Part shown: one piece after another, positions 13,821-54,557 of the stretch
How positions within the stretch are numbered: position 1 is the stretch's first letter
Layout: each line of letters starts with the position of its first letter
DNA from: Daejeonella lutea
GTDB taxonomy: Bacteria > Bacteroidota > Bacteroidia > Sphingobacteriales > Sphingobacteriaceae
Assembly: GCF_900168015.1 (NCBI RefSeq)
Contig: NZ_FUYR01000001.1
Coordinates: 1,796,943 to 1,860,942, forward strand
Direction of reading: 5' to 3'
DNA length: 64,000 nt
Made by a program: the position numbers and the translations under genes
The notes under the pieces: model-generated
Told to the model about the DNA's origin: nothing
What the model saw: only the letters and a program-made list of their open reading frames with translations
Databases searched by the model: none

Positions 13821-13859
13821 CCGTCCTTAATCGAACATATACTGTCCGAATGTGAACAG
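13821..13859 (+). promoter_or_regulatory. tandem operator pair CTGTCC-N6-GAACAG (putative sigma-54 enhancer)
   Basis: The proximal site at 13842-13859 is CTGTCC-GAATGT-GAACAG, identical at all 12 outer bases to the site at 49032-49049 before the efflux operon. A weaker copy, CCGTCC-TTAATC-GAACAT, lies at 13821-13838, 21 bp upstream. The proximal site ends 51 bases before the TGGCAC element. Binding by the NtrC-type regulator at 38953-40335 is inferred. Confidence 0.65.
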
Positions 13860-13910
13860 CACTTCCGCGAATCTACACCCAAGGTGCTGAAAATAAAGGC
13901 TTTAAAATAT

Positions 13911-13925
13911 TGGCACTGGTTTAGG
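13911..13925 (+). promoter_or_regulatory. sigma-54-like promoter TGGCAC-N5-TAGG
   Basis: A perfect -24 TGGCAC is followed with correct spacing (GG-N10-GG) by TAGG where TTGC is the consensus. The start codon of the FtsX-type permease lies 46 bases from the first base of the -24 element. The -12 match is weak; the shared operator spacing with the efflux promoter raises confidence. Confidence 0.6.
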
Positions 13926-37676: not shown

Positions 37677-38969
37677 TCAGAAAGATATTTTAAATTCCGT
37701 CCAGCCTCCCCTGCTCTCCAGGGAGAACTCCATTCCATGATTGTAAAGAACTTCCCTTGTAAGGGTAAGGCCAACACCTTGCCCATTTTTCTTCGTGCTA
37801 AAAAATGCGGAGAATAGCTGCTTGCTAACTTCCCTGGAAATACCGTGCCCGTTATCCAAAATTGACAGGCTGCGGGGTGAACTGGAGGTACGTAAAATGA
37901 TGGTGCCAGTACTTTGAATTGCTTCAATAGCGTTCTTAATCACGTTGATAAGTACCAGTTCGATTTGCTGCACATCAATTTCAACTATAAGCGACTTCGA
38001 TTCCAGCTGCCACTCCCAGTTAATTACTTTATCCTTAGCCTGAGCGTCCATCAAGACCTGTACGGTTTTGAGTAAAGAGTGGACGTCGATTGATTCCCTG
38101 ATGGGCTCGGGGATTTTTACGACATCGGCAAAATTAGACATGACGGTACTAAGTGCCTTATTACGGTTTATTGCCACGGTTAGGGCATTGTCGTAATCAT
38201 CACGGTACTTTTCCTCCAGCTGACTTTTATACGTTAATATGGTGCTAAGAATGGAGTTGATCGCGCCGATGGAATTATTGGTCTCATGCGACATCATACG
38301 TATTACCTTTTCAAAAGCGCTCTTTTCTTTTTTGTAGATTTCGTCCGAAAGCTCCTCGATCATGATGAAATAATGGGAAAACCCGCGGTCGACAAAATAA
38401 GCTTTTTGGCATTTGTAAATCTGTGTTCCATTAATCGTTAAGATTTCCGATTTCCCATCCTGCAGGTTGTTCAACTCAGATGCAAGGGTTCCACTGAGCT
38501 TATCTAATTTTTGCCCGATAAAATTGGCTTCAAAACCGGGAAGAGTTGCTGCCGCCGGGTTCATCGAAGCTATTTTGTTTTCAGAATCAAGCATTATTAT
38601 CGCTGATGGAGATGCTTCTATAAGCTTGGAAAGGAAATAGTTCTTTTCACTTTGCTTGATTCGTTCTTCACGAAGCTGGTCGATCATTTGATTGTACACA
38701 TCGATAAGCTCATCCATCTCCGGGTGGCCAACATGTATAAGCCGGGTAGTAAAATCCTTGTCCTTTATCGATTCAATGCCAGAGGAAATTAATTTAAACG
38801 GCTCACTAATGGACCGGTAAAGCCAAATGGAAACGCCAATGGAACACAGGACAAGGATTTCTCCCAAAATAAACAGGTATTTATTTACTTCCAGGAGCAG
38901 AAATAGCAGAAAGATCAAAGTAAGATGTGTCAGGCTGCTGTAGAGCAGAAATTTACTTCTGAGCTTCAT
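37677..38969 (-). CDS. NtrB-type sensor histidine kinase, partner of the sigma-54 activator
   Basis: The 430-residue kinase has two membrane helices close together near the N-terminus (about 10-50, almost no periplasmic loop), a HAMP-like linker, a PAS domain (~130-220), HisKA with IRMMSHETNNSIGAINSI and a HATPase (NVIKNAIEAIQ, DNGHGIS, GQGVGLTLTREVLYNHG). It overlaps the response regulator gene by 17 bases. The pair sits directly beside the efflux operon and probably controls it. The lack of a periplasmic domain suggests membrane or cytoplasmic sensing. Confidence 0.92.
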   Translation of the reverse strand: MKLRSKFLLYSSLTHLTLIFLLFLLLEVNKYLFILGEILVLCSIGVSIWLYRSISEPFKLISSGIESIKDKDFTTRLIHVGHPEMDELIDVYNQMIDQLREERIKQSEKNYFLSKLIEASPSAIIMLDSENKIASMNPAAATLPGFEANFIGQKLDKLSGTLASELNNLQDGKSEILTINGTQIYKCQKAYFVDRGFSHYFIMIEELSDEIYKKEKSAFEKVIRMMSHETNNSIGAINSILSTILTYKSQLEEKYRDDYDNALTVAINRNKALSTVMSNFADVVKIPEPIRESIDVHSLLKTVQVLMDAQAKDKVINWEWQLESKSLIVEIDVQQIELVLINVIKNAIEAIQSTGTIILRTSSSPRSLSILDNGHGISREVSKQLFSAFFSTKKNGQGVGLTLTREVLYNHGMEFSLESRGGWTEFKISF

Positions 38970-40335
38970 ACGGGATATTATATTTTTCGAGCTTGCGGTA
39001 AAGTGTCCCGCGACTCAGGCCCAGCGAGCGTGCCACCTTACTGATATTTCCCCTGTGAAACTCCATTGCTTTTTGAATCATGGACAATTCCATCTCGTCG
39101 ATCGTCACGCTTCCTACTTCCGGCAAAGTAAACTTGGAGTTCTGAATTTTGCGATGCTCGGTTTGTTTCTCAAAGTCTTTTATCTCAAGCATATCTGTTT
39201 CACTGACCAGAACGGTGCGCTCTACCAGATTTTTAAGTTCCCTGATATTCCCTGGCAGGGATCTGCTTTTGAGCCAGTTGATTGCTTCTCGGCTGATGTT
39301 CAGTTCATCACGTCCATAAATCGTTTTTAAATTATCTAGAAAATAATTAATCAGTAAAGGGATATCATTTGAACGTTCTCTTAATGGTGGCAGGTTAACC
39401 GTTATCAGGTTAATGCGATAATACAGGTCTTCCCTGAACTTGTTTTCAGCCACCATTTCCTGCAGGTTGCGGTTTGTAGCGCAAACCACGCGTACGTCGA
39501 CTGTCTTGGTGCGGCTATCGCCCAGTACTTCATAGGTTCGGTCCTGAAGTACCCGGAGGAGCTTTACCTGGCTGTTCAGATCCAGGTCTCCAATTTCATC
39601 AAGAAATATGGTGCCTTTGTGCGCCATTTCAAAACGGCCAAGACGGTCATTTTTAGCGTCAGTAAATGAGCCGCGCTTATGCCCGAACATTTCACTTTCA
39701 AACAGCGAAGAGGAAATCCCGCCCAGGTTTACCTTAATGAAGGGTTTATTACGCCGGTTACTGTTTTGATGAATCGCTTCGGCAATCAATTCCTTTCCGG
39801 TGCCGCTTTCCCCGGTAATGAGAACCGAGGCGTCGGTCGAGCTGATACGGCCAACAGTTTTTAAAATCGACAGCATACGGGCATCCTCGCTTATAATATT
39901 CTCTAATCCGTATTTGTCATTTAATTGCTTTCTGTTGTATGAGTTTTCTGTTTGTAAACGATTTTTGTCCGAAAGCTCCAATGCGGTCCGGATTACCTGC
40001 ATGATGTTTGCATTATCCCAGGGCTTATGAACAAAGTCGGCAGCTCCATTCTTCATCCCCTCAACAGCCAGGGTTATTGAGCCCCAGCCTGTCATCAGGA
40101 TAACTGGAATTTCCGGCTTCAATTTCTTTATTGTTTTCAGCGCCTGAAGCCCTTCCAAACCGGAGGTTTCCAGCGAGAAATTCATATCAAGCAGCACCAA
40201 TTCAATTGCCCTTTCTTTAAGACGGGCATACCCCTCTTCGGGTCCTTCAGCGGAAGTGATTTCGAAGCCTTCCTGTTTTAAAAGCAGGCTTAGGGAGGTG
40301 CGGATGGCGATATCGTCGTCGATGATGAGGATCAT
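38953..40335 (-). CDS. NtrC-family sigma-54-dependent response regulator
   Basis: The 460-residue protein has a receiver (D6-D8 pocket, D50 acceptor), an AAA+ domain with Walker A GESGTGKE (175-182), Walker B GTIFLDEIGD (241-250) and Arg finger in LYYRINL, and a Fis-type helix-turn-helix (NISKVARSLGLSRGTLYRKL). The sigma-54 contact loop is GSFTDA (222-227), differing from the classic GAFTGA at two positions but keeping Phe and Thr. Its likely DNA sites are the CTGTCC-N6-GAACAG operators found before the efflux operon and before the permease at 13957. Confidence 0.94.
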   Translation of the reverse strand: MILIIDDDIAIRTSLSLLLKQEGFEITSAEGPEEGYARLKERAIELVLLDMNFSLETSGLEGLQALKTIKKLKPEIPVILMTGWGSITLAVEGMKNGAADFVHKPWDNANIMQVIRTALELSDKNRLQTENSYNRKQLNDKYGLENIISEDARMLSILKTVGRISSTDASVLITGESGTGKELIAEAIHQNSNRRNKPFIKVNLGGISSSLFESEMFGHKRGSFTDAKNDRLGRFEMAHKGTIFLDEIGDLDLNSQVKLLRVLQDRTYEVLGDSRTKTVDVRVVCATNRNLQEMVAENKFREDLYYRINLITVNLPPLRERSNDIPLLINYFLDNLKTIYGRDELNISREAINWLKSRSLPGNIRELKNLVERTVLVSETDMLEIKDFEKQTEHRKIQNSKFTLPEVGSVTIDEMELSMIQKAMEFHRGNISKVARSLGLSRGTLYRKLEKYNIPYEAQK

Positions 40336-40490
40336 GGTCAGTTGTCAGTTGCGAGTTATCAGTTGCCAGTCTGGGCGGATATGTATGGTTAGTTATTTAG
40401 GTATTAGGTTTTAGGCATTAGGTGCTAGACGTCTAGCTTCAGACTTCAGACCTCCTTCCGACTTCAGCCTACGACTTCCAGTCAAGGTAA
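40336..40490. repeat. heptad array with opposing arms
   Basis: Units of CAGTTGN, TTAGGNN and then, after the palindrome CTAGACGTCTAG, CAGACTT-like units follow each other with a 7-base period. The two arms are partly complementary around the palindrome. The word TCTGGGCGGATA is shared in part with the array at 17306-17585. No gene is present. Confidence 0.8.
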
Positions 40491-40534
40491 AAAAAATTGT
40501 CATCAATAAATACCCAGTAAATTGAGCAGTGGAC

Positions 40535-41716
40535 CTATTCCTCATACAAAGCTTCTGCAGGTTGAATTTTGGATGCTCTTAAACTTGGATATAAACTACA
40601 GGCGATCATCAACAGGTATATAAAAAGTGCAGCGCCGGCAACGCCCAACATTCCTTCACGAAGACTAAGATTTCCGAAAAAGCCGGCGATGATGAACTGT
40701 AGGGCAACAAATGCTCCTGGTATAGTGGCGAAACTGCTTAGTACAATTGTTTCAGTCAGGAATTGCTTCAGGATATTACCTGAGACCGCGCCGGTTGCTA
40801 CCCTTAAACCAATTTCCGATCTTCTTTTCGCGATTGCGTAGGAGAATACTCCTGAAATTCCAAGGAAGATATTGAGAACCAGAAAACCGAAGACCACTAA
40901 AGCCAGTGTGAGCTGAATGAGATCATTTTTATTGCTCATTTTCTTTACCATGTTCATTGGCGAGCTATTCCGTACAGTAAAATTGTCGTCTTTGATTGTT
41001 TCAAGTACTTTCCTGATCTTTCCTTCCATCAAGAAAAAATTATTGGCATATTTTGATTTTACCAGGATCGCTGAGCCGGTGGTATCCGGACCAATCGGTT
41101 TAAATATATAGCCCTTCCCATTACCTCCTATCTCGCGGGAGAAATTATCTCTATACTCAGCAGTCACACCTACTATCCTCGTCTTTTTGCCGCTCAGAAG
41201 GATTGTCTGACCGATCGGATCCTGACCATTGAAATATTCCTCTGAAAGATCCTCCGTAATTATGATTGGAACGATAGCTGAAAGCCTGTCGTCCTTTGTA
41301 AACCATCGCCCCTTTTTTATCGGGAGCTCTAATACCTGATTGAAGTGCTCGTCCGCAATAAAGGTTCTGAAAGATAATTTATTGTTCTGAATGACAGCTT
41401 TTTCATCAGTTGGCCATGAATAGAACGGGATCAGGGAGGCATTGCTCACCAGTTCCGCTTCAGGCATTGCGCGTAATTTTTGTTCAATAGCACTTACGTA
41501 GCCTTGCGCCTTATCTGTTGGAACCTTATCCAGGCCCAATGATATCGCCCAAACATGATCATAGTTATAATAGTAGGGTTTGAAATAGGCTAAAAACTTG
41601 TCGACGTTAAGTGCTATAAAAAACGTCAGAGCAACGAATGAAATAAACAACTGGAAGACCAGCAAAAAATTACTTTTCCTCTTGCGCCATAGCATTTTGA
41701 AGGTGTGTCTGATCAT
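40535..41716 (-). CDS. FtsX/MacB-type permease, B-type paralogue 2
   Basis: The 393-residue half-size permease has a first helix (FLLVFQLFISFVALTFF), a periplasmic MacB_PCD-like domain and three C-terminal helices with KRRSEIGLRVATGA and the end motif SKIQPAEALYEE. It is most like the protein at 42978-44087 (same start MIRH, same end motif). It overlaps the preceding gene by 4 bases and is the last gene of the efflux operon. Confidence 0.92.
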   Translation of the reverse strand: MIRHTFKMLWRKRKSNFLLVFQLFISFVALTFFIALNVDKFLAYFKPYYYNYDHVWAISLGLDKVPTDKAQGYVSAIEQKLRAMPEAELVSNASLIPFYSWPTDEKAVIQNNKLSFRTFIADEHFNQVLELPIKKGRWFTKDDRLSAIVPIIITEDLSEEYFNGQDPIGQTILLSGKKTRIVGVTAEYRDNFSREIGGNGKGYIFKPIGPDTTGSAILVKSKYANNFFLMEGKIRKVLETIKDDNFTVRNSSPMNMVKKMSNKNDLIQLTLALVVFGFLVLNIFLGISGVFSYAIAKRRSEIGLRVATGAVSGNILKQFLTETIVLSSFATIPGAFVALQFIIAGFFGNLSLREGMLGVAGAALFIYLLMIACSLYPSLRASKIQPAEALYEE

Positions 41717-42972
41717 AAGTTATTGCCTTTAAGTGCGTTAACGGGATGCATTTTAGACATCCTGTATGCTGGGTATACGCCGGAAAGAAAGCCGAAAAAA
41801 CAGCAGCAGCCAATGCAAAATGCGACCACCCTCCAGCTCAGTATGAACTGCCCGAACGAAATCTGGAAGAGGGGATCGAAAGCGTTCAGCATCAGGATCA
41901 GCGCATCTGAAAATAAATAGGCTAAGATTACTCCGATAAGCCCGCCGGTTAGCGTTAGGATGATATTCTCAACAATAAACTGTCCTGCAAGAGTGGATGA
42001 TGAAGCTCCGAACGATTTACGGACACCTATCTCTGCAGCCCGTTCTGAAATTCTGCTTATATTAAGGTTGATGAGGCTTATCACTGGTATCAGCAGGAAC
42101 AAGAACAGGCAAGCAAAAAGTGCCGTAAATAACTGGGCGAAATCTGGATCAGGATCAGAGTTGCGTACTTTTGCGAAGTGCTGTAAGGCTGTGAGCGCAT
42201 TGGCTTTTACAGAAGTAAACTGCGGATTGGGAGGTACAATCTTCCTCATCCTGGCATCGATTTCAGCCTTCACTTTCTCCGCATCTTCGCCCGAGCGGGC
42301 AAGCAGCATTGCTTTATATTGACCATGGATGGTCGGCCATTCGGCAGGGGGCGGTACAGGAGCGGGATCAGCAGTATAAGGTATCCAGGCGTCAGATCCT
42401 GCATCACTTAAAAGCGGTGCACTCTTGACAACCCCTATTACGCGGAAGGGGATACCAAATAGCTCAATTATCTTTCCAGCAGCATTCCCCTCACCGAAAT
42501 AATAATCCTTGAGTTCTTCAGAGATAACTACAACCCTGCTGGCATTTTTTACCTGCCGGGCATCGAATGGCCTGCCCTCAAGGAACTTGAAGTTGGTTAT
42601 CGACCAAAAATTTTCATCGGAATATTTTAACCGGTGCGCTCTGGGAACCCCATTACGGGCCGAGACATATCCCCCATCCCGATAAATCGAAATTCTCTCC
42701 GGTGTTCTCAAGGTGGTAATATAACGCTGCAGGAAGGGCAGGCTGACTTCGTCAGGACGGCCCCGGTCATCTTTCATGAGGAAAACTTCTTTGAGGACGA
42801 GTGTTCGCCCGCGGTTGGGCTCCGTATCACTCGCACCCACGATCTGGTCGATAAATGCCGCTGTTATAGTAATGATCATAATCGTGAAGCTGATACCCAC
42901 GAGCGTCAGGAACGTGAAATACTTCTTGCGAAGCATTACCTTGAAGGCGAGTTTAATGTAGTTTTTTAGCAT
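41713..42972 (-). CDS. FtsX/MacB-type permease, A-type paralogue 2
   Basis: From the ATG at 42972 the protein has 419 residues. It starts LKNYIKLAFKVMLRKKYF with the first helix, has a large periplasmic domain and three C-terminal helices with ERAAEIGVRKSFGASS. It is a paralogue of the protein at 44084-45283 and presumably pairs with a B-type permease. Overlap of 4 bases with the next gene and a gap of 5 bases before it mark a tight operon. Confidence 0.92.
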   Translation of the reverse strand: MLKNYIKLAFKVMLRKKYFTFLTLVGISFTIMIITITAAFIDQIVGASDTEPNRGRTLVLKEVFLMKDDRGRPDEVSLPFLQRYITTLRTPERISIYRDGGYVSARNGVPRAHRLKYSDENFWSITNFKFLEGRPFDARQVKNASRVVVISEELKDYYFGEGNAAGKIIELFGIPFRVIGVVKSAPLLSDAGSDAWIPYTADPAPVPPPAEWPTIHGQYKAMLLARSGEDAEKVKAEIDARMRKIVPPNPQFTSVKANALTALQHFAKVRNSDPDPDFAQLFTALFACLFLFLLIPVISLINLNISRISERAAEIGVRKSFGASSSTLAGQFIVENIILTLTGGLIGVILAYLFSDALILMLNAFDPLFQISFGQFILSWRVVAFCIGCCCFFGFLSGVYPAYRMSKMHPVNALKGNNL

Positions 42973-42977
42973 ATCGA

Positions 42978-44087
42978 TTATTCTTCGTGGAGCGCCACCG
43001 CCGGTTGGATCCTTGAAGCGAGTCCAGCCGGATACAAGGCACATAGCATAACTACCAGGTAGATTACACCAGCTGCATATATGATTGACGGGTAATAACC
43101 CGGCTGTTTACCAAAGAACTCGAAAAAGACGAATTGTAAAGCCACGATAACTCCCGGGATAATAGCGATTGTTGCCAGCAAGCCTACTTCAAGCACTATT
43201 TGCCAGTATATCTGTGCGGACGTTGCACCGGCAGCCCTTCTCAGACCGATCTCCGGCCTTCGGCGGTTGATGTTCTGGTAAAGAATACTAAAAAGCCCCA
43301 GCACGACATTTATCAGCAGAAAACTACTCATGATCATCATACCGGCCATCATACGACTGTGTTCGGAATCATATTCCGCTTTATAAAGGCTGATTGGAAT
43401 GATATTATCCGAAAATTCGCTTTCATCACCGCCCGCGGCAGATTTTAGTTTATTATAAATTTTGTCATCAATGGGTTTCGTCAGCCTCACAAGGAACATA
43501 TTTGCCGGTTCCATAACAAAAACATGGGGCCTGTCCTGGTAACCTGTGGGATCGTTCAGATCATTTGCCACACCGATAATTTTATATACTGTCGTCCCTA
43601 TTTTAAGTACCTGACCTTCTGCTTTTGTTTTTGGAAAAAGCTGGTCACGCAATACGGTCGTTATCACAACAGGCAGTTTTGCAGCTCCCCGATCCGTTTG
43701 GTCGAACCATCTGCCGGAAGACATGGAAATCTTGAGTACTGATGTCAGTCCTTCATCTGCGTGATTCTTGTAGACCCGCATAAATTTGTCACCATAAAAG
43801 AGGGTGTCATTTGTGGCAATATTTGAATAAGGCCTGTGCGATGTGTTACTGATATGTTGTACTTCTTTTATCGAACGCAAGATGGTTCTGGCTGTGTCGC
43901 CGGAAGAGCCTGGATACACGCTTACCACCTGATCAACATTAAAGTTTGGCTGTTTTGAGGTTGTTACTGCCAGGGAAAGGAGTAAGAACAAAAAGCACAT
44001 GACCAGGTACGCAAAAAAAAGCTCGACTGTAAGAACAAGATGCTTCATCTTCTTATTCCACACTAGTTTCAAAAGGTGCCTGATCAT
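42978..44087 (-). CDS. FtsX/MacB-type permease, B-type paralogue 1
   Basis: From the ATG at 44087 the protein has 369 residues. It begins IRHLLKLVWNKKMKHLVLTV, followed by an N-terminal helix, a short periplasmic domain and three C-terminal helices with RRRPEIGLRRAAGATSAQIY and end motif SRIQPAVALHEE. In-frame codons upstream overlap the preceding gene and look non-coding. It overlaps that gene by 4 bases. Confidence 0.92.
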   Translation of the reverse strand: MIRHLLKLVWNKKMKHLVLTVELFFAYLVMCFLFLLLSLAVTTSKQPNFNVDQVVSVYPGSSGDTARTILRSIKEVQHISNTSHRPYSNIATNDTLFYGDKFMRVYKNHADEGLTSVLKISMSSGRWFDQTDRGAAKLPVVITTVLRDQLFPKTKAEGQVLKIGTTVYKIIGVANDLNDPTGYQDRPHVFVMEPANMFLVRLTKPIDDKIYNKLKSAAGGDESEFSDNIIPISLYKAEYDSEHSRMMAGMMIMSSFLLINVVLGLFSILYQNINRRRPEIGLRRAAGATSAQIYWQIVLEVGLLATIAIIPGVIVALQFVFFEFFGKQPGYYPSIIYAAGVIYLVVMLCALYPAGLASRIQPAVALHEE

Positions 44088-45283
44088 AAGTTTCCGTTCT
44101 TTAAGGCCTTTACGGCATGTAGCCTGGACATCCTCCAGGCAGGCACTGCACCCGACAGCAAACCAAAAAACAAGGATGCGAGCACAGCGTACATAATTAC
44201 ATCCCAATGAATAAGCACACTGTTAGATGCTATGACATCGTCATTGGAGGCCACGATATGGGTGATAACCAGGCCTGAGCAAGCGTAGGTTAACAGGACG
44301 CCCAATAGGCCACCTATCAGTGTTATGATAATACTCTCTGCTATGAATTGCCCAGCCAGCACGGAAGACGAAGCGCCAAAAGCTTTTCGGATGCCAATCT
44401 CAGATCTCCGCTCAGCGATTCGGCCGATATTTATACCAACCAGGTTCAGGGCCGGAATTACCATGGTGAAAAATATGAATACAGCCATTATAGCCAAATA
44501 ATCGCCAAAGTCATTGCGCTCATATACATCATTCGCCCACAATTCGACGTTCCGCTTTTTAGGATTATAGCGTTCGTTTATCAGTTTACTAAGACTTTGT
44601 TTAATTTCAGGAAGATCCGACTGTTGCTTCGCGACTATTATAGCAGAATAGATCGGGTTTTTATTTGCACCGAAGTGGTAGCGATTTAACGGTATGAATG
44701 CCTGAGCAGCCTCTGGTCCGACACCTCCAATATGCAGGAAATCTTTTATCACCCCGATTACTCTGAGCCTGGGAGTGGTTTCGAGGAATTGACCAACCGC
44801 TTTTTCATCGCCGAAATAATGTTTTTTAACTGATTCAGTTATCACCACTATTGACTGAGCTCCACGGGCTTCATCGGCGGTAAACGTACGCCCTTCGAGA
44901 AGATCATGTTTATAGATTTTCCAGACTTTCTCATCAGTGAAAACCACGTCGATTGAGGTTTTTTTACCATTTTTAAAAGAAGTCAGCTGGCCAGCGATAT
45001 ACCGGCCCATAGTCTCGACATTCGCCAGCTTTTCGACCTGATCATAGAAAACAGGTTCCGGGGCCGAAAATCTGAATTGATCTCCTTCGACAGTGAAACC
45101 CCTGTAGTAAAGCGTTCTCTCACGGTTTATGTTAGGTGCATCATTTCCGAACGTAATGGCAGTTATGCTCGCTATGATGGAAAAAACCATGATCGTAAAG
45201 CTTATTCCGAAAATACTGATTGCCGTAAAGAACTTCTGCCGGAGCATGACTCTGAAAGCAATTTTTATGTAGTTTTTTAGCAT
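44084..45283 (-). CDS. FtsX/MacB-type permease, A-type paralogue 1
   Basis: The 399-residue protein begins LKNYIKIAFRVMLRQKFF, with the first helix at ~20-40, a periplasmic domain of ~230 residues and three C-terminal helices with ERRSEIGIRKAFGASSSVL; it ends SRLHAVKALKNGNL. It is the first of four permeases, arranged A-B-A-B. It is separated from the ATPase gene by a heptad array. Confidence 0.92.
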   Translation of the reverse strand: MLKNYIKIAFRVMLRQKFFTAISIFGISFTIMVFSIIASITAITFGNDAPNINRERTLYYRGFTVEGDQFRFSAPEPVFYDQVEKLANVETMGRYIAGQLTSFKNGKKTSIDVVFTDEKVWKIYKHDLLEGRTFTADEARGAQSIVVITESVKKHYFGDEKAVGQFLETTPRLRVIGVIKDFLHIGGVGPEAAQAFIPLNRYHFGANKNPIYSAIIVAKQQSDLPEIKQSLSKLINERYNPKKRNVELWANDVYERNDFGDYLAIMAVFIFFTMVIPALNLVGINIGRIAERRSEIGIRKAFGASSSVLAGQFIAESIIITLIGGLLGVLLTYACSGLVITHIVASNDDVIASNSVLIHWDVIMYAVLASLFFGLLSGAVPAWRMSRLHAVKALKNGNL

Positions 45284-45434: not shown

Positions 45435-46103
45435 CTAATTCACCTGCCTTCCATCGAAAAACCGGATCACCCTCTCGGTCTTATTTGCCATGTTCTCGTC
45501 ATGTGTGACCATGACAATGGTGGTGCCTTCAGTTTTGTTCAATTGCAGCATGATGTTCATGATCTCTTCTCCCATGACGCTGTCGAGGTTACCTGTTGGT
45601 TCATCGGCCAGGATGATCTCGGGGTTGCCCACAATGGCACGGGCAATTGCCACTCGTTGCCTTTGTCCGCCGGAAAGCTGGTTCGGATAGTGCTTGGTGC
45701 GGCTGTTCAAGCCGACTTTTTCAAGGGCCTCAAGGGCTTTTTTGCGTCGTTCAGATCCCGATACACCTTTGCGATAGAGTAAGGGGATTTCTACATTGTC
45801 GACCACAGAAAGGTCATTGATCAGGTGATAGCTTTGAAAAATAAAACCCAATTTCTGATTTCTCATATGTGCCAGGCGTTTGTCGGCATACCCTGAAATA
45901 AGTGTGTTGTCGATCTCTATCTTGCCGGAGCTGGGTTCATCAAGAAGTCCCATAATATTCAGAAGTGTACTTTTTCCGCATCCGGACGGACCCATAATGG
46001 AAACGAATTCGCCTTTATTGATAACAATATTTACTTTGCTCAAGGCCATAGTCTCAATGGTGCTCGTGCGGTAAACTTTTTCTACGTCTGTTAACTTTAT
46101 CAT
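45435..46103 (-). CDS. MacB/LolD-type ABC ATPase
   Basis: The 222-residue ATPase has Walker [10 protein letters not shown]-loop [10 protein letters not shown], signature [14 protein letters not shown], Walker [14 protein letters not shown] and switch His in [10 protein letters not shown]. Its size and the RQRVAIARA context are typical of MacB/LolD ATPases that work with FtsX permeases. It serves the four permeases downstream and perhaps the lone permease at 13957, which has no ATPase of its own nearby. Confidence 0.95.
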
Positions 46104-46181: not shown

Positions 46182-47681
46182 CTAGTTCAGTATTTTCTGG
46201 TTCTTTTCGAAGTCGTATAATGTCAGTGTGCGGATGTTGAAGTAAGCATCCCAGAAATTTCTGAGCGAGAAAATATAGTCCCTTTTTGCCTGGTCTTTCT
46301 CCTGAAGTGCAATGTTCAGATCTGTTATACTCAGATCGCCCAGCATATACCTGGCTCGCGCTATTCCATACCGTTCTTCCGCAGTCTGATCTGCTTCACG
46401 GTTGCTTTGCATCTGTGCACGGATCATGTTGAACTGTTTCACCTGGGTTAAAATGGCCTGATCAAAATTAATCTCCTCCTGGGCAATGGTATACTGTACC
46501 AGTTTCTGATTAGCCTCGGCGGTTTTAATCCGGGAAGCAGATCTTCCCCAATCCATGATGGGGATCTGAAAACCCAGTCGGACGCGCTGCTGATCCCTGG
46601 GGTCGCGGTATATGCCTCCAATATCCGGCGCGCGGTTGGTAAGACCAAAAGTCCCAAAAAGACTTGCATTAAGTCCATTATCACCATGTGCACGGGCAAC
46701 TTCACGCTGTGCCTCAAGCAATGCACGTTTGTATTCCACGGTCTGCCTTTTATTAGCCCGGGCTTCACGAATGGCGGCCTCCGGGTCAACTTCGAAATTG
46801 GGGAGGTTTTCTGGCAGAACGAGCTCGATCACACTGTTTTCTTTGTAGCCGATATACGACTTCAATTGCAGCATTGCACTTTCTGAATTTAGATTTGCCT
46901 GTGCAAGTGCCTTCCCGGCATTTAAGGAAGCCAACCTGAGCTGAAGCAGCTCGTCTTTGGAAAGCTTGCCCAGTTCGGACCTTACCAAAGCTATTTTGTA
47001 GATGGTATCATTATTAATCTTGTTTTTTTCGGCTATACCCTGATTGATCTGGCTGATCATCAGGTTAAAGAATAAGGAAGATGCCCTGTAGCCTACTTCT
47101 TCAATATCTTCGGAAAATTTCTTTTGCGATTCTTCATATTTCAATGGCTCTGTTTTTTTATCCCAGGCAAGCGGGTTGAAAGCGAAGAGGGGTTGGTTAA
47201 AGCCAATGATCAGGGGATTTCCATTGTAACGGGTCTGCCTCCGGTCGAAATCCTGGAAACGAAGTAAGCTGGAGTTAAGAAATACCTGGGCACCTGTCAG
47301 GCCTATGTTCTGCGTGATCCCCAGGTTTAGCGACGAATTATCATTTGCCACGGGTTGAAATTCAACGGTCCCGTCCGGTTGCGTTACTGGAATATTGTCG
47401 CGGTTGAATTCAGGCAGGGTACCATTAAGCATCAGTTGGGGTCTGTAATTAGACCTGAATGTTTTCCATTGCCAATACCGGTTTTCTTTTATAGTTGCAG
47501 CCTGCAGTGACGCGGTGGAGTTTTGTTTAGCAATGCTTATCACTTCCTTTAAACCCAGACGTACTACAGGTATTTCCTGGGCATAGCTTTGAAAAGAAAG
47601 TAGAAATACCATGGCCGCATAAGCACAACCGAAACATGTTAGATTGAAACGAATGCTAAAGTTGAATCTATTCCTTTTCAT
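46182..47681 (-). CDS. TolC-family outer-membrane efflux protein
   Basis: The 499-residue protein has a signal peptide (AAMVFLLSFQSYAQE) and the TolC repeat structure with two helical-hairpin halves (VGYRASSLFFNLMISQINQGIAEKN and the C-terminal NFDQAILTQVKQFNMIRAQMQ). It forms the outer-membrane channel of the efflux complex. It starts 2 bases after the HlyD-like gene stop. Confidence 0.92.
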   Translation of the reverse strand: MKRNRFNFSIRFNLTCFGCAYAAMVFLLSFQSYAQEIPVVRLGLKEVISIAKQNSTASLQAATIKENRYWQWKTFRSNYRPQLMLNGTLPEFNRDNIPVTQPDGTVEFQPVANDNSSLNLGITQNIGLTGAQVFLNSSLLRFQDFDRRQTRYNGNPLIIGFNQPLFAFNPLAWDKKTEPLKYEESQKKFSEDIEEVGYRASSLFFNLMISQINQGIAEKNKINNDTIYKIALVRSELGKLSKDELLQLRLASLNAGKALAQANLNSESAMLQLKSYIGYKENSVIELVLPENLPNFEVDPEAAIREARANKRQTVEYKRALLEAQREVARAHGDNGLNASLFGTFGLTNRAPDIGGIYRDPRDQQRVRLGFQIPIMDWGRSASRIKTAEANQKLVQYTIAQEEINFDQAILTQVKQFNMIRAQMQSNREADQTAEERYGIARARYMLGDLSITDLNIALQEKDQAKRDYIFSLRNFWDAYFNIRTLTLYDFEKNQKILN

Positions 47682-47683
47682 CG

Positions 47684-48931
47684 CTAGTCCTTAATTTCAA
47701 CTTTATCCTGGTTCTCAAAATCTTTCATATCGGTGACGATGACTTTGTCCCCAGCCTTTAACCCTGACCGGATTTCTATGTAGTCAAAATTGCTTTCCCC
47801 AACAGTCACTACCCTGCTGGATGCTTGATTTCCATTCACCACAAATAATTTTTGGTGTGCAGACCCATCGAAGGCGGAACCGTTCTTTAAACGCAGCACC
47901 TGATTTTTTACCGAAGTCACTATGAAAATCTCAGTCTTGAGATTGGATCTCAAAAGCGGGTGATCTTTCTTATCAAGGTTCACAAAGAATTTTACTGTGC
48001 CGTTTTCTACGGCTGGCTGGATACTGCTAATCCGGCCGCGCAGATCAGTATCATTAATACGGATGATTACCCATCCGCCATTCCGCAGTTGAGACGCATA
48101 GGCGTCTGATATGCTGCCTTCAACCTTAAAGCTGCGAAGGTCCGCTATTTTGGCGATTTCTGACCCTTCGCTAACCTCTGAGCCTATCTGGCTGCTTACC
48201 CAGGTAATTATTCCGTTTGCTGGTGAGCGTACTTCAGCCTGGTTAAGTTTCCTGTCAGATTCCGAGATGCTTTTATTCTGGATACTCATCTGCAGACCCA
48301 GGCTTCGCAGGTCGGCCTGCATGGTTTTTTGCTGATTGGAAATTTGATTCTTCAGTTGTTTTAATTCAATTTTCGCGATGTCGAGATTAAGAACAGCCTG
48401 TTTCACTCTTTCTGCTGTGCCGCCACCGATCTTAAGTAAGGAACGCTCGTGCTCCAGAGCTGATTCCAGGCTCTGGATTCGCATTTCCTTTATTGAATAC
48501 TGGGTTTGCAGGTCATTTAAGGTGCGCTCCAAACTGAGCCTGAGCTGATTTATTTTGTTGCGATTAACTTCCTGCTCGTCCAGCAGCTTGTCGTAATTTA
48601 TTTGAGTAGTTTCCTTATTGAGTTTCAAAATGGATTCGCCCATCTGTACAGCCTCCCCGGCACTGTGCAGAACTTGCTCAATCTTCGCGTTGATAGGGCT
48701 TGTGATCAAAAACTCGTATTCAGGAACGATCACCCCGGAAGCAGGGATGGTTGCTTCTATGGTTCCAACCTCTGTTGTTTCAATTGTAATTTTTGAGCGT
48801 TCTATTGACGGTTCTATCAGGCTTCTGAAACCAAAAAATGCAATCGTCATTGCGATAATGATTGAGCCTGCGATAAGCCATTTTCTGAATAAAGCCTTCC
48901 GTTTAAAATCTGCGGATAATTCGGTGTCCAT
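47684..48931 (-). CDS. HlyD/MacA-type periplasmic adaptor
   Basis: The 415-residue protein has one N-terminal membrane helix (WLIAGSIIIAMTIAFFGF), a lipoyl domain split by a long coiled hairpin (~110-210), and a beta-barrel (DKVEIKD terminus, VEGSISDAYASQLRNGG). It joins the inner-membrane permeases to TolC. It is the first gene of the operon. An AGAGGA Shine-Dalgarno-like word lies before the start, and a sigma-54-like promoter and two operators lie further upstream. Confidence 0.93.
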   Translation of the reverse strand: MDTELSADFKRKALFRKWLIAGSIIIAMTIAFFGFRSLIEPSIERSKITIETTEVGTIEATIPASGVIVPEYEFLITSPINAKIEQVLHSAGEAVQMGESILKLNKETTQINYDKLLDEQEVNRNKINQLRLSLERTLNDLQTQYSIKEMRIQSLESALEHERSLLKIGGGTAERVKQAVLNLDIAKIELKQLKNQISNQQKTMQADLRSLGLQMSIQNKSISESDRKLNQAEVRSPANGIITWVSSQIGSEVSEGSEIAKIADLRSFKVEGSISDAYASQLRNGGWVIIRINDTDLRGRISSIQPAVENGTVKFFVNLDKKDHPLLRSNLKTEIFIVTSVKNQVLRLKNGSAFDGSAHQKLFVVNGNQASSRVVTVGESNFDYIEIRSGLKAGDKVIVTDMKDFENQDKVEIKD

Positions 48932-48966
48932 GTTGGTATTATTCCTCTGTTAATACCGGGGAGTTT

Positions 48967-48981
48967 CCAACGATTGTGCCA
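48967..48981 (-). promoter_or_regulatory. sigma-54-like promoter of the efflux operon
   Basis: On the minus strand, TGGCAC (48981-48976), N5, TTGG (48970-48967) form GG-N10-GG, a perfect -24 with one mismatch in the -12 element (TTGG for TTGC). The start codon is 50 bases from the first base of the -24 element. Two operators lie upstream. Confidence 0.75.
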
Positions 48982-49031
48982 CATTTAACTACCTGATAAT
49001 TTGATAGTTAAAAATTTATAAGCCTTGAAAA

Positions 49032-49068
49032 CTGTTCCATAATGGACAGGTTGTTTCATAGTGGACAG
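49032..49068 (-). promoter_or_regulatory. tandem CTGTCC-N6-GAACAG operators (putative enhancer of the efflux operon)
   Basis: Read on the minus strand, 49049-49032 is CTGTCC-ATTATG-GAACAG and 49068-49051 is CTGTCC-ACTATG-AAACAA, 19 bp apart. The first ends 50 bases before the -24 TGGCAC. The outer bases match the site at 13842-13859 exactly. The rest of the spacer, 49069-49302, shows no gene. Confidence 0.7.
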
Positions 49069-50109: not shown

Positions 50110-52773
50110 TTAGAATTTAAAGTTGTAAGTGATCGATGGGACATATTTGAATAGTGTAGTTCGCAATGCCTCTGCTTTGTCGGGGACCGTCTTACTCTCC
50201 CTGAAGGTGATCCGGTAGGCATTGTTGTAGCCGTACGCGTTATACAAACCTAAAATCAATTCGGATGAAAAGGTTTTCGTTTGTTTAAGCTGGCGTGTTG
50301 CGCCAAGATCCAGGCGTTGGTAGTTAGGCATGCGATACCCGTTTCGCTCGGTGAAATAGAAAATGGTCTGATCATCAACGCGATATTTCCCGCTCGGGAA
50401 GGTGACCGCATCTCCGGTATAAAACACCCAGTTCGCGGATAATGCCCATTTGGGGTTCACCTGGTACATGGCCGTAATGACTACATCATGGGTCCTGTCC
50501 TGCCGTGCATTATACCAGTTGTTGTTATTAATGCCGTTGATCTGTCTTTCCGTTTTCGAAAGGGTATAACTCAGCCATCCGCTTAGTGCTCCAGCCTTTT
50601 TCTTTGCCAGAAACTCTATACCATAAGCCCTGCCCTTTCCATAAAGCAATTGGGTTTCTATAGGAGCATTAGTGAATACATCAGCTCCCGGACGATAGTC
50701 GATCTGATTGCTCATTGTTTTATAATAGGCTTCGGTGCTGAATTCATAAACGTTGCCGGCCGCTTTTTTATAAAAACCCAGGGAAAACTGATCGGCTGTT
50801 TCGGGCTTTATAAGGTTAGTACTTCCTACCCACTTATCAGTTGGAGATTCTGCAGTTGAATTACTGATCAGGTGTAAATTTTGAGTATTGCGGACGTACG
50901 ATGCTTTAACCGAATTGCCCGGGCTGAACTCCCACCCCAGAGCCAGCCTGGGCTCAAAGTTGATATAGGTTTTAACTACTTCGCGCGATTTATAGCTCTT
51001 GGTGGTAAGAACCTCTCCGTTCAGATCAAGCGTGTAAAAGTTCCCTTTCCCCAGAATAGTAAAGGCCGGCACGCGCAGGCCATAGGTAGCGCTAAGCTTA
51101 TTACTGATACTCCAGGCATTGCTGATATATACAGCATTTTCAACAGAGTACTGATTTTGCAGCCGCTCCCGCACCGTAGTTGCAACCCCTTGGGCCGAGA
51201 TCTCTCCCGGCTTGATGGTATGGTAGATGGAATTGAGACCAAAACTTAATGTGTTCCTGTTGTTAAGGTTCCATTGCACATCTTCCTTAAAGTTCCAGTC
51301 CCGGATCTGTGAAAAAATATTGAACTTATTAATGCCGAGATTGACATTGATCTTATAGTCGTAATTACTAAGGATCAACGATGTATTTGAAAACACCCGG
51401 TTGTTGAAAATGTGGTTCCATCGCAGGGTACCTGTCGCATTTCCCCAATTGATTCCACCCAAATCATCGGAGCTTAACACATCCTGGCCAAAGTATCCTG
51501 AGATATAAAGCCTGTTACTGTTATTTATCTGGTAATTGGCCTTTACATTCAGATCGTAGAAGTAGAGCTTTATACCGTCAACAGCCGTGTCAGAAGACAA
51601 TTTGAGGAACTGATCTACATAAGTTCGCCGGCCCGATATCAGAAAGGAAGATCTCCCTTTTTGTATAGGTGCTTCCACATTAAGCCTGCTCGCGATCAGC
51701 CCGATTCCCCCGCTCACACCAAGCTGCTGGTTATTGCCATCATTCATTTTGATGTCCAGTACAGAAGATAATCTGCCTCCATATTGTGCCGGCATACCCC
51801 CTTTATAGATACTGGCATTCTTTATCGCATCAGAATTAAAGGTGGAGAAAAACCCCATCAGGTGTGAGGCATTGTAAACAGGAGCCTCGTCGAGCAAGAT
51901 CAGGTTCTGGTCCGCTGCCCCACCCCGCACATAGAAACCACTGCTTCCTTCACCTGCGGCTTTTACCCCAGGCAGGAGCTGAATAGTCTTTAAGATATCC
52001 CTTTCGCCAAACAGAACAGGAATGTTGGAAGTCTCGCGGACACTCACCTTATCAAGCCCCATCTGAGCATTCAAAGGCTGATTGCCTTCATCACCTGTTA
52101 CTTTTACTTCTGCTAGCTGGTATGAACTTTCATCAAGTGCGAAATTCATCGTGGAGTCGGCGCTAAGCGAAACTTGCAGCTGTCTTTCTTTAAACCCGAT
52201 TGCACTAACGATCAAACTGTAATTACCCTGAGGTAAGCGCAACGAGTAGAAGCCGTAATCATTTGTGCTTGTACCCTGCTGGAGGCCTGCGATCATGATC
52301 GTACCTCCGGGAATGGTTTCACCGGTTCTGGCCGACTTGATACTGCCGCTGATGGCATAGCTCTGAGTTGACATGTCGGTCCTTGCCGCTCCTGGGTAAA
52401 CCTTTTGGTTTTTCTGATCGATTCGTATCAAGACTTCGCTGCCTAGTTTTGTAAAACTATAGCGGGTGGATTTTAACAGTTCAGACAGCAAAATCCTGAG
52501 GGGCTTATTAACTCCCCTGGCACTCAGTTTTTGTTTATCGTTTGCTACCTCTTCGTTAAAGGTGAATTTTATACCACTCACCCTGGTGATCTGGCCCAGA
52601 GATTCTTTAAGAGTGGCATCATTAATGACAATATTGATCTTTTTGTCCAATACGCTCTGTGCGAAGGAAAGCTGATTGATCAATACCAATGCGAAGCACA
52701 GGAATGCGGTATACGTGTATCGCCTGAGCGGGTCAGACATCGATAGAACGCCAATAAATGTGTAGATTTTCAT
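50110..52773 (-). CDS. TonB-dependent receptor with STN and carboxypeptidase-regulatory-like domains
   Basis: The 887-residue receptor has a signal peptide (FLCFALVLINQLSFAQ), an STN domain (~40-115, for anti-sigma signalling), a CarboxypepD_reg-like domain (~130-215), a plug (VPVLFGERDILKTIQLLPGV, GGAADQNLILLDEAPVYN) and a barrel ending in PSITYNFKF. An ATG 11 codons downstream is an alternative start. With the sigma factor and FecR upstream it makes a cell-surface signalling system that induces its own locus. The ligand is unknown. Confidence 0.93.
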   Translation of the reverse strand: MKIYTFIGVLSMSDPLRRYTYTAFLCFALVLINQLSFAQSVLDKKINIVINDATLKESLGQITRVSGIKFTFNEEVANDKQKLSARGVNKPLRILLSELLKSTRYSFTKLGSEVLIRIDQKNQKVYPGAARTDMSTQSYAISGSIKSARTGETIPGGTIMIAGLQQGTSTNDYGFYSLRLPQGNYSLIVSAIGFKERQLQVSLSADSTMNFALDESSYQLAEVKVTGDEGNQPLNAQMGLDKVSVRETSNIPVLFGERDILKTIQLLPGVKAAGEGSSGFYVRGGAADQNLILLDEAPVYNASHLMGFFSTFNSDAIKNASIYKGGMPAQYGGRLSSVLDIKMNDGNNQQLGVSGGIGLIASRLNVEAPIQKGRSSFLISGRRTYVDQFLKLSSDTAVDGIKLYFYDLNVKANYQINNSNRLYISGYFGQDVLSSDDLGGINWGNATGTLRWNHIFNNRVFSNTSLILSNYDYKINVNLGINKFNIFSQIRDWNFKEDVQWNLNNRNTLSFGLNSIYHTIKPGEISAQGVATTVRERLQNQYSVENAVYISNAWSISNKLSATYGLRVPAFTILGKGNFYTLDLNGEVLTTKSYKSREVVKTYINFEPRLALGWEFSPGNSVKASYVRNTQNLHLISNSTAESPTDKWVGSTNLIKPETADQFSLGFYKKAAGNVYEFSTEAYYKTMSNQIDYRPGADVFTNAPIETQLLYGKGRAYGIEFLAKKKAGALSGWLSYTLSKTERQINGINNNNWYNARQDRTHDVVITAMYQVNPKWALSANWVFYTGDAVTFPSGKYRVDDQTIFYFTERNGYRMPNYQRLDLGATRQLKQTKTFSSELILGLYNAYGYNNAYRITFRESKTVPDKAEALRTTLFKYVPSITYNFKF

Positions 52774-52846
52774 ATCTTTAATTGAAGGTTAATGATGTGC
52801 ATTGCCCTATGTTTTCGAAGGCTGGGGCAAGCTGTTGTTTCCACAA

Positions 52847-52882
52847 GGGCCCGATTCTGCTTGCAGAGCGGGTCTTTTTTTT
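52847..52882. other. hairpin between FecR and receptor genes, T-run on plus strand
   Basis: GGGCCCG (52847-52853) pairs with CGGGTCT around an inner TCTGC-TT-GCAGA stem, followed by eight T on the plus strand. On the minus strand, in which the flanking genes run, the A-run precedes the stem and no T-run follows. It may attenuate or separate expression of anti-sigma and receptor genes. Confidence 0.65.
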
Positions 52883-52903
52883 ATCTAATTACATAAAGGG
52901 AGA

Positions 52904-53902
52904 TTAAGGGTTAATAAAATAGACACCAGCTTTTTCCTCCCAGGTGGTTTCCATGACCAAAGAAAGTTTCTTCAGTATTTCAGCAGGCTTATTATTCATA
53001 TCCAAACTGCCGTAAAAGGCCTTACCCTTAAGGGATTCGTCGACGACAAAACGAACATTGAACTGTCGTTCCATTTCAGCAGCCAAATCCTGAATAGGCG
53101 CTCCCTGGTATTCGAACCTGCCCTCCCGCTGCAAGAGATATTTTGAAGATTGCGGGTAGCTTTGCATACTGAGCGACTTGCTGGATTTTTCAAGAATTGC
53201 CTGCTGGTTAGGAAGCAGTATTTGCCGCTGGGTTTTTCCCTGCTCACTGGCTTCCACCCGCACCTTTCCGCTTAACACGGCAACTTTAATAGTTTGCTCC
53301 TTCTGGTAGGCGCTAACGTTGAAGCTGGTGCCTAACACCGTCGTCTTGACTTCTCCACTGGATATGATAAAAGGGTGTTCTTTATCGTGCGAAACCTCGA
53401 AAAAGGCTTCGCCTTCGAGTTCAACCGGGCGGATGTTGCCCTGAAAACGATCTGGATAATTTAGCTTCGTGCCTGGTGCCAGCCAGACTTTTGTTCCATC
53501 CGGGAGGATGATTGTTTTACGTTCACCCCACGAAGTTGCTGCACTGAGCTGTTCTTGCCCGGTAATTATGGATAGATTATTCCTGTAGAATATCCCAATA
53601 GTTAACAACAGGAGTAGCGATGCTGCAATTGCCAGCAGGGCAGCAGGCCATTTTCGGACCGGGGGATTGCCAGACTCTGACGAAATTCGCTTGTGAATAG
53701 AACTTAACAATTTTGCGGATACAGCTTTATCTAAGAGGTCAGCTTCCGGTGATTTCTCACCTTCCGGATGAGGTTCAAGAAACTCTCTAAACTCATCGGG
53801 GTCAGCTGATTCCAAATAGTTAGACAACCATATGCTATCCTGTTGAGACAAGTTACGGTACCGGCTGATCAGCTGCTTTGCCCTTTCCTGATTTGTATTC
53901 AT
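52904..53902 (-). CDS. FecR-type anti-sigma factor
   Basis: From the ATG at 53902 the protein has 332 residues: a cytoplasmic N-terminal part (~1-85), one membrane helix (ALLAIAASLLLLLTIGIFY), a FecR domain (GERKTIILPDGTKVWLAPGTKL, VELEGEAFFEV) and a C-terminal DUF4974/STN-like domain (IQDLAAEMERQFNVRFVVDESL). It receives the signal from the receptor and controls the sigma factor. The frame extends upstream through the poly-C tract, but that part is not homologous. Confidence 0.93.
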   Translation of the reverse strand: MNTNQERAKQLISRYRNLSQQDSIWLSNYLESADPDEFREFLEPHPEGEKSPEADLLDKAVSAKLLSSIHKRISSESGNPPVRKWPAALLAIAASLLLLLTIGIFYRNNLSIITGQEQLSAATSWGERKTIILPDGTKVWLAPGTKLNYPDRFQGNIRPVELEGEAFFEVSHDKEHPFIISSGEVKTTVLGTSFNVSAYQKEQTIKVAVLSGKVRVEASEQGKTQRQILLPNQQAILEKSSKSLSMQSYPQSSKYLLQREGRFEYQGAPIQDLAAEMERQFNVRFVVDESLKGKAFYGSLDMNNKPAEILKKLSLVMETTWEEKAGVYFINP

Positions 53903-53940
53903 GGTGTTGATTTTACTAAATACGCCGATCGGAGTAAAAA

Positions 53941-53953
53941 GGGGGGGGGGGGG
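53941..53953. repeat. 13-base G homopolymer between sigma factor and anti-sigma genes
   Basis: Thirteen consecutive G (C on the coding strand) lie in the 67-base gap between the stop of the sigma-factor gene (53970) and the start of the FecR gene (53902). Tracts of this length often slip during replication. Confidence 0.9.
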
Positions 53954-53969
53954 TACCCGATTTTTATTT

Positions 53970-54557
53970 TTACAGGCAGTTGAGCACCAGGGCTGCCAGC
54001 ACCAAATGATAGTCGCCCGGATACTGCTTAACATATTCTTTTACAGCAGCCATGGCGAGGGAAAGATATTCCTTTACGGTATGTTTTGAGATATTGAGTT
54101 CTGCTGCGGCCTCTGCATAGCTTTTGCCCTCAATTTTACAAAGGATAAATACCTTTTGCTGTTGTAGGGAGAGTTTCTTGATCGCCTCTTCCAGGATCTC
54201 ATCCCGCAGATCATCGCTTTCCGACTGGAGCGATTCCGGTTTCTCCATTTCGGCAGCGAGCTGTCCCTCCAGGGTTCTTGCCCGGAGTACTTTTCTTATA
54301 TGATCCATGGAACGGTTGAAACTCACCACATGCAGCCAGCCGCTGATCGATTTTCCGGGATCAAGCTCATGGCGGTGTTCCCATAGCACCACGAAAACAT
54401 CCTGTAAAATATCCTTCGAGTCTTGTGGATCTTTAACGTATTTGAGAATGTTCCGGTAAATGGCCTGATGATACTGCCAGTATAATGCGTCGTACGCCCG
54501 AATGTTGCCTTCGACCAGCTGATGTACCAGCAATTTTGTATTAAGCTCGGATTGCAT
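53970..54557 (-). CDS. ECF-type sigma factor of the FecI/RpoE class
   Basis: The 195-residue sigma factor has region 2 (DALYWQYHQAIYRNILKYV, DILQDVFVVLWEHRH) and region 4 (KKLSLQQQKVFILCKIEGKS, LNISKHTVKEYLSLAMAAV). It directs transcription of the receptor/DUF4249 genes when released from FecR. It is the first gene of the locus. Confidence 0.93.
   Translation of the reverse strand: MQSELNTKLLVHQLVEGNIRAYDALYWQYHQAIYRNILKYVKDPQDSKDILQDVFVVLWEHRHELDPGKSISGWLHVVSFNRSMDHIRKVLRARTLEGQLAAEMEKPESLQSESDDLRDEILEEAIKKLSLQQQKVFILCKIEGKSYAEAAAELNISKHTVKEYLSLAMAAVKEYVKQYPGDYHLVLAALVLNCL

Follow-up and report, generated by a model that had tools for sequence, protein, structure and literature searches.

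A conserved, probably sigma-54-dependent promoter with tandem operators ahead of a putatively self-regulating exporter operon

Results and discussion

An exporter gene block with its own regulator and kinase

The 64-kb stretch of DNA analysed here, hereafter the window, carries on its minus strand a gene block that encodes, in this order, an HlyD-type adaptor, a TolC/OEP channel, an ABC ATPase, four permeases, a REC-AAA-Fis regulator and a histidine kinase (Table 1). Most of the genes are tightly packed or overlap, the widest gaps being 151 bp after the ATPase gene and 199 bp before the regulator gene, and given the size of the latter gap the regulator gene could also have a separate promoter of its own. 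This gap (40336-40534) holds degenerate short repeats (gaagtctgaagtc and cctaatgcctaaaacctaatacctaa), and repeats resembling them are found in the intergenic DNA of two other loci, L056 and L061. Farther upstream of the operon, genes for a TonB-dependent receptor, a FecR-like anti-sigma factor and an ECF sigma factor were recognized by eye (50110-54557, minus strand).

Table 1. Features of the promoter region, the exporter block, the second site and the type-B system of the same genome
Feature	Position	Strand	Basis or remark
Sigma-54-type promoter TGGCAC-N5-TTGG, TGGCACAATCGTTGG	48981-48967	minus	pattern match and ortholog logo
A/T-rich spacer between operator and promoter	48982-49029	minus	imperfect IHF-like matches only
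Proximal operator CTGTCC-N6-GAACAG, CTGTCCATTATGGAACAG	49049-49032	minus	0 mismatches; centre about -85
Distal, weaker operator, CTGTCCACTATGAAACAA	49068-49051	minus	2 mismatches; centre about -104
HlyD-type periplasmic adaptor	47684-48931	minus	ORF, domain match
TolC/OEP outer-membrane channel	46182-47681	minus	ORF, domain match
ABC ATPase, MacB/LolD/DarD group	45435-46103	minus	domain match, NCBIfam
MacB_PCD-FtsX permease 1	44084-45283	minus	domain match
MacB_PCD-FtsX permease 2	42978-44207	minus	listed ORF start; true start probably further downstream
MacB_PCD-FtsX permease 3	41713-43044	minus	ORF start as listed
MacB_PCD-FtsX permease 4	40535-41716	minus	domain match
Sigma-54 enhancer-binding response regulator, REC-AAA-Fis HTH	38953-40335	minus	GSFTDA loop, helix SRGTLYR
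Histidine kinase	37677-38969	minus	two adjacent TM helices, no periplasmic domain; overlaps regulator gene
Second site, tandem copy CCGTCC..CGAACAT, CCGTCCTTAATCGAACAT	13821-13838	plus
Second site, exact operator CTGTCC..GAACAG, CTGTCCGAATGTGAACAG	13842-13859	plus
Second site, promoter-like element, TGGCACTGGTTTAGG	13911-13925	plus
Orphan duplicated MacB/FtsX permease, 814 aa	13957-16401	plus	behind second site 13821-13925
Type-B system L056	G000:C10:479304-482245 (same genome)		kinase-regulator pair faces HlyD, ATPase, several large permeases

The same kind of block was sought elsewhere by scanning one genome per species with an alignment of the regulator, and the best 80 loci were kept. An HlyD ORF lies upstream within the retrieved DNA in 71 of these, the kinase ORF is present in all 80, and in each of the 78 with sufficient upstream DNA the regulator is part of the block. 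Pairwise identity within the window is 38.6% for permeases 1 and 3 and 31.4% for permeases 2 and 4. Two permease ORFs lie within 6 kb ahead of the regulator in 78 of the 80 loci, the exceptions (L103 and L111) being loci cut off by a contig end immediately ahead of the regulator. The window has four permeases of such size (40535-45283) where the orthologous loci have two, and its pairs 1/3 and 2/4 look like a duplicated permease pair.

The regulator and its kinase, which the initial annotation had placed at the far end of the block, were confirmed there by domain matches. Receiver, sigma-54-interaction AAA and Fis-type HTH domains are all present, with the receiver residues D7, D8, D50, T82 and K104, and PDB matches to NtrC-family regulators extend over nearly the full length. 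On its three domains we assign the regulator to the NtrC family, the variant form of its loop aside: in place of the strict GAFTGA the window has GSFTDA, and the 81 regulators compared divide into 77 with GAFTDA and 4 with GSFTDA. We read this as a family-wide variant that keeps the G, F, T and last A and would work in the same manner. In the kinases, hydropathy places the hydrophobic stretches at the N terminus, with a largest gap of 0-4 aa between them in 81 of 81 proteins; the layout is that of the intramembrane-sensing kinase type, as predicted from this hydropathy. The genome as a whole has one Sigma54_DBD match (E 3.6e-55), an rpoN product carrying ARRTVAKYR, which we take to be the rpoN box, and five strong matches to sigma-54 enhancer-binding proteins.

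The closest regulator found is from Pedobacter metabolipauper (74%). In the window's own genus, represented by 20 genomes, the only other regulator of the window's type, here type A, is 63% identical, and Pedobacter genomes often have a second type-A-like copy plus a copy of a second type, B. Such a distribution would follow from transfer, or from one of two old copies having been lost.

A promoter and tandem operators ahead of the HlyD gene

The sigma-54-type promoter lies 50 bp ahead of the HlyD ATG at 48931, as the initial annotation had it, and is the single exact match to TGGCAC-N5-TTGG in the window. The sigma-54 consensus is TGGCAC-N5-TTGC, with GG at -24, GC at -12 and 10 bp between them; the window copy keeps the GG, the spacing and the G of the -12 element and has the canonical C replaced by G. 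The transcription start previously proposed, at about 48955, is what a count from the -24 G at 48979 predicts. Both of the 18-bp operators described before were also recovered, one exact and one weaker, at the 19-bp spacing claimed for them. Tandem palindromic sites of the NtrC family stand about 80-150 bp upstream, and the conserved centres of the two operators fall within this range.

Taken by themselves, loose patterns carry little information in the window: the promoter pattern with up to one mismatch was found 7 times against 4.3 expected, and the operator with up to three mismatches 47 times against 37, neither being significant. The 4.03-Mb genome has only two exact operators, both of which lie in the window, and an operator followed at 30-60 bp by TGGCA likewise occurs twice, against none for the reversed pattern. 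Since loose matches in the window are near chance, the significance of the promoter and operators comes from their conservation across species.

Conservation across orthologous loci

A strict promoter pattern (TGG[CT][AT]-N6-TTG[CG]) was searched around the HlyD start and found in 49 of the 71 loci, against 1 on the opposite strand and a mean of 1.1 (maximum 4) in dinucleotide shuffles. The strict operator (TGT[CT]C-N6-G[AG]ACA) is present in 44 of the 71, where shuffles gave a mean of 0.05 and a maximum of 1. With a matrix built by leaving similar sequences out, 57 of the 71 loci scored above nearly all shuffles (at most 1 in 50 reaching the score) and 68 scored above the opposite strand.

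For a logo, 67 of the 71 ortholog rows and the window were anchored on TGG and reduced to 49 non-redundant rows; the script found no TGG anchor in the other four, three of which carry near-matches by eye. In these 49 rows, window included, GG and the fifth-position A are both invariant, and the -12 element has its first T in 49, its second T in 44 and its G in 45, counts that lean towards the pattern because the anchor was picked with the promoter pattern itself. The fourth -12 base, a C in the textbook TTGC, is G in 33 of the 49 rows, as in the window, A in 10 and C in 6.

Promoter, both operators and the 19-bp spacing are kept before HlyD genes in Pedobacter, Pontibacter, Rufibacter, Hymenobacter and Mucilaginibacter, and the same layout is found in Chitinophagaceae, Dyadobacter and others. 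This conservation, together with a regulator in the same block, supports the sigma-54 and enhancer-binding-protein arrangement proposed by the initial annotation. Its word 'classic' suits the arrangement and fails for the -12 element and the activator loop, neither of which has the textbook form; 'efflux', its name for the operon, is a putative function taken from homology to MacB/FtsX, HlyD and TolC. We consider it very probable, from these sequence comparisons, that TGGCAC-N5-TTGG and the tandem operators together form a promoter from which sigma-54 drives an exporter operon that regulates itself.

The A/T-rich spacer between operator and promoter may add a further element. IHF-like sites follow the consensus WATCAA-N4-TTR, which is present exactly in the spacers of 20 of the 49 rows (0.57 in dinucleotide shuffles) and with at most one mismatch in 41 (10.2 in shuffles), both counts being inflated by sequence relatedness. 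Thirteen exact forward matches begin at -17 to -19. It is plausible that the spacer holds a DNA-bending site for IHF or HU.

Operator position and recognition-helix classes

The operators keep to narrow positions. In the 31 of 49 non-redundant rows that have the strict form, its start falls either at -67 to -69 or at -81/-82, counted from TGG, and nowhere else. When the loci are divided into five subgroups by regulator helix, every one gives the second, weaker copy its highest score exactly 19 bp upstream (mean scores of 8.0, 5.8, 7.7, 6.0 and 7.5 out of 10, against 2.9-3.3 averaged over spacings).

Operator sequence and recognition helix vary together. Regulators with helix SRAALYR (17 loci) pair with TGTTCA-N4-TGAACA, those with SRGTLYR (12 loci, the window among them) with TGTCCA-N4-TGAACA or close forms, and those with SRGALYR or SRGSLYR (11 loci) with TGTCCA-N4-TGGACA; TRSALYR and TRSSLYR (19 loci) go mostly with TGTCCG-N4-CGGACA, and TRFALYR (8 loci) with GTGCG-N4-CGCAC. 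On a regulator tree built without the HTH, the switch between Ser and Thr in the helix amounts to one change and the A/G state of the operator to three, and a sign test of the Ser/Thr helix against the operator has a single independent pair. Because the Ser/Thr switch occurred once on the tree, the correlation alone has no statistical weight, and we rejected the switch as statistical proof. That operator class follows the recognition-helix class of the regulator is a consistent pattern, drawn from few independent events.

A second site, type-B systems and competing explanations

A further exact operator, absent from the initial annotation, lies elsewhere in the window with a tandem copy and a promoter-like element, ahead of an orphan permease gene (13821-13925). 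Its arms are identical to those of the efflux operator, and its tandem spacing is 21 bp, not 19. We first favoured control by the window's own regulator, given the identical arms, and came to regard it as less likely in view of the spacing. In type-B systems, one of which is in the same genome, a divergent kinase-regulator pair faces HlyD, ATPase and often large permease genes. The tandem spacing there is 21 bp in 17 of 22 scored regions, and before orphan permeases it is 21 or 23 bp in six of six. As the 21-bp spacing matches these type-B and orphan-permease sites, we regard the type-B regulator as a more likely activator of the second site than the window's own. By eye, type-B and orphan promoters often have a TTGGC one base nearer to -24, which restores GC at its usual distance.

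The nearness of the two systems raises the question of which activator serves the HlyD promoter. Another enhancer-binding protein, chiefly the type-B regulator, might be what mainly binds its sites, the regulator in the block having other or overlapping targets: the genome does encode a type-B regulator beside an HlyD-ATPase-large-permease set (L056), and type-B relatives sit near TGTTCG or TGTCCG palindromes that resemble the window sites. We think this improbable, however. The type-B spacing differs from the 19 bp of the HlyD promoter and of each of the five type-A subgroups, the type-B promoter of the same genome differs in sequence (GTATCATAACCGCACA / TGCACGGTAGCGAACG), and type-A operators track the recognition-helix class of type-A regulators.

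It is less probable still that the operon is driven mainly by an ordinary vegetative promoter further upstream, with a minor role for the sigma-54 element. Vegetative promoters of Bacteroidota have the -7 consensus TAnnTTTG. A TATATTTG at position 176 of the 371 intergenic bases fits it, and an imperfect TTTA/TTAG lies upstream, but this is one imperfect match in A/T-rich DNA, whereas the block with strong conservation is the sigma-54 element. A sigma-70 scan returned plus-strand matches only, at chance level. Least credible of all, and rejected, is the reading of the palindrome and its T residues as an intrinsic terminator of the upstream gene: Dyadobacter-type loci (L106, L116, L128, L135 and L143) do have a GC-rich hairpin of up to -15.2 kcal/mol followed by a T run, and many other loci have a T tract just downstream of the palindrome, but the gene next upstream is oriented away in 34 of 67 ortholog loci (in 31 it has the same orientation, and 2 have no such gene), hairpins in the window's subgroup are weak, between 0 and -6.2 kcal/mol, with -5.5 in the window, and the palindrome keeps a fixed distance to the promoter, comes in two copies 19 bp apart and recurs before other genes. 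The operators of those five Dyadobacter-type loci could double as terminators.

A possible mechanism and its relation to known systems

The sites, their conservation and spacing, the link to helix class, the gene order, the domain content and the kinase topology were obtained directly by computation, and a sigma-54-dependent, self-regulating operon would combine them as follows. The kinase, which has no periplasmic domain, would detect an envelope signal within the membrane or through the exporter and would phosphorylate the regulator, presumably at Asp50. The regulator would then bind the two tandem palindromes and assemble there, its GSFTDA loop would contact RNA polymerase-sigma-54 at TGGCAC-N5-TTGG, and ATP hydrolysis by the regulator would open the promoter. 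The exporter would thereby be switched on, along with the regulator and kinase genes themselves if the block is one transcript.

Each part of this scheme has known relatives. NtrC-family regulators (NtrC, ZraR and AtoC, and the NtrC1 and NtrC4 structures) share the REC-AAA-Fis order and tandem palindromes upstream of a -24/-12 promoter; the window's regulator differs in its GSFTDA loop and in being encoded inside the exporter block that it would control, and it is no equivalog of the NCBIfam members (AtoC score 415, cut-off 714). The exporter parts resemble the MacB, ADOP and Dar families, all scoring under the NCBIfam curated cut-offs. As in MacAB-TolC there are an HlyD-type adaptor, a TolC-like channel and MacB_PCD-FtsX permeases, but MacB is a fused ATPase-permease, whereas here the ATPase and four different permeases are separate ORFs. 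The exporter proteins scored fall below the MacA and MacB cut-offs, the two of the four permeases that were scored reaching 71.2 and 85.4 against 966 for MacB. The darobactin exporter DarBCD gives the best or nearly best NCBIfam match for the adaptor and ATPase, and the second for the orphan permease, but all fall short of the NCBIfam cut-offs for the Dar proteins (93.5 against 450, 250.4 against 375 and 123.7 against 700).

Bce systems have an OmpR-type regulator as their output. The likeness to BceS-BceAB lies in a kinase that lacks a periplasmic domain and adjoins FtsX-type permeases. According to a review of MacB, BceS senses through BceAB and the kinase needs the transporter; the same review places MacAB of E. 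coli and Salmonella under PhoPQ (PMC5985334). The present system differs from BceS-BceAB in its predicted sigma-54 output and its tripartite Gram-negative exporter, and in the present system sensing through the transporter is hypothetical.

To our knowledge, sigma-54 control in Bacteroidota has been little explored. The arrangement itself is classical; what is new is the conserved system, the topology of its kinase, the difference between 19- and 21-bp spacing and the TTGG form of the -12 element. In the portions consulted, one paper argues that sigma-54 controls the bacterial exterior (PMC3162934, 2011), and another reports, as what it calls first evidence, that sigma-54 regulons of Bacteroidia, gamma-Proteobacteria and Opitutia are enriched for FtsX-like permeases (COG0577; PMC12316311, 2025). 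The latter shares with our work sigma-54 promoters before FtsX-family permeases, and differs in that its consulted portion gives a statistical, class-level enrichment without operators, a cognate regulator or an operon-level mechanism. A literature search that covered few subscription journals, and so is weak evidence of absence, found no description of the operon, its operators or the spacing difference. Dozens of genomes here allow promoter, tandem operators and activator to be compared jointly, and their classes of helix and operator match; tandem spacing separates two sister systems, and the -12 element departs from the textbook. How specific the activators are, how much variation is tolerated at -12 and how a kinase with no outside domain senses the envelope can thus be tested directly in ordinary laboratory strains.

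More tentatively, and with appreciable doubt, we suggest that such cells hold two sister exporter systems with separate kinases and separate sigma-54 activators, whose near-identical half-sites would be partly insulated by the difference between 19- and 21-bp spacing. The kinases might read a signal from the transporter, which would make these systems the equivalent of the Bce flux-sensing modules in Gram-negative bacteria, with sigma-54 as output, and orphan MacB-like permeases such as that at 13957-16401 might have been recruited through 21-bp-spaced sites.

Other genes with the same layout

Such sites also precede orphan large permeases in Pedobacter and Chitinophaga and type-B HlyD genes. 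A first regulon scan, of 29 genomes, gave 63 matches against 35 for a reversed control, which is weak by number alone; a second, of 20 genomes, gave 25 against 2, which is strong. Inspection of 55 loci from the scans placed 26 before type-A HlyD genes, 6 before orphan permeases, 3 before detached ATPase genes, 2 before type-B HlyD genes and 3 before lipoprotein-like ORFs, the remainder being without an assigned gene or probably due to chance. Within the window's genus, outside the window's own genome, there are 9 operator matches in 5 genomes. In three Hymenobacter genomes (L157, L158 and L177) the ATPase gene is detached from HlyD-TolC and has its own operator and promoter. In three Pontibacter genomes (L198, L204 and L205) a TGTTC-type operator and TGGCACACCAATTG lie ahead of a gene for a lipoprotein-like product of about 410 aa, possibly a further member of the regulon.
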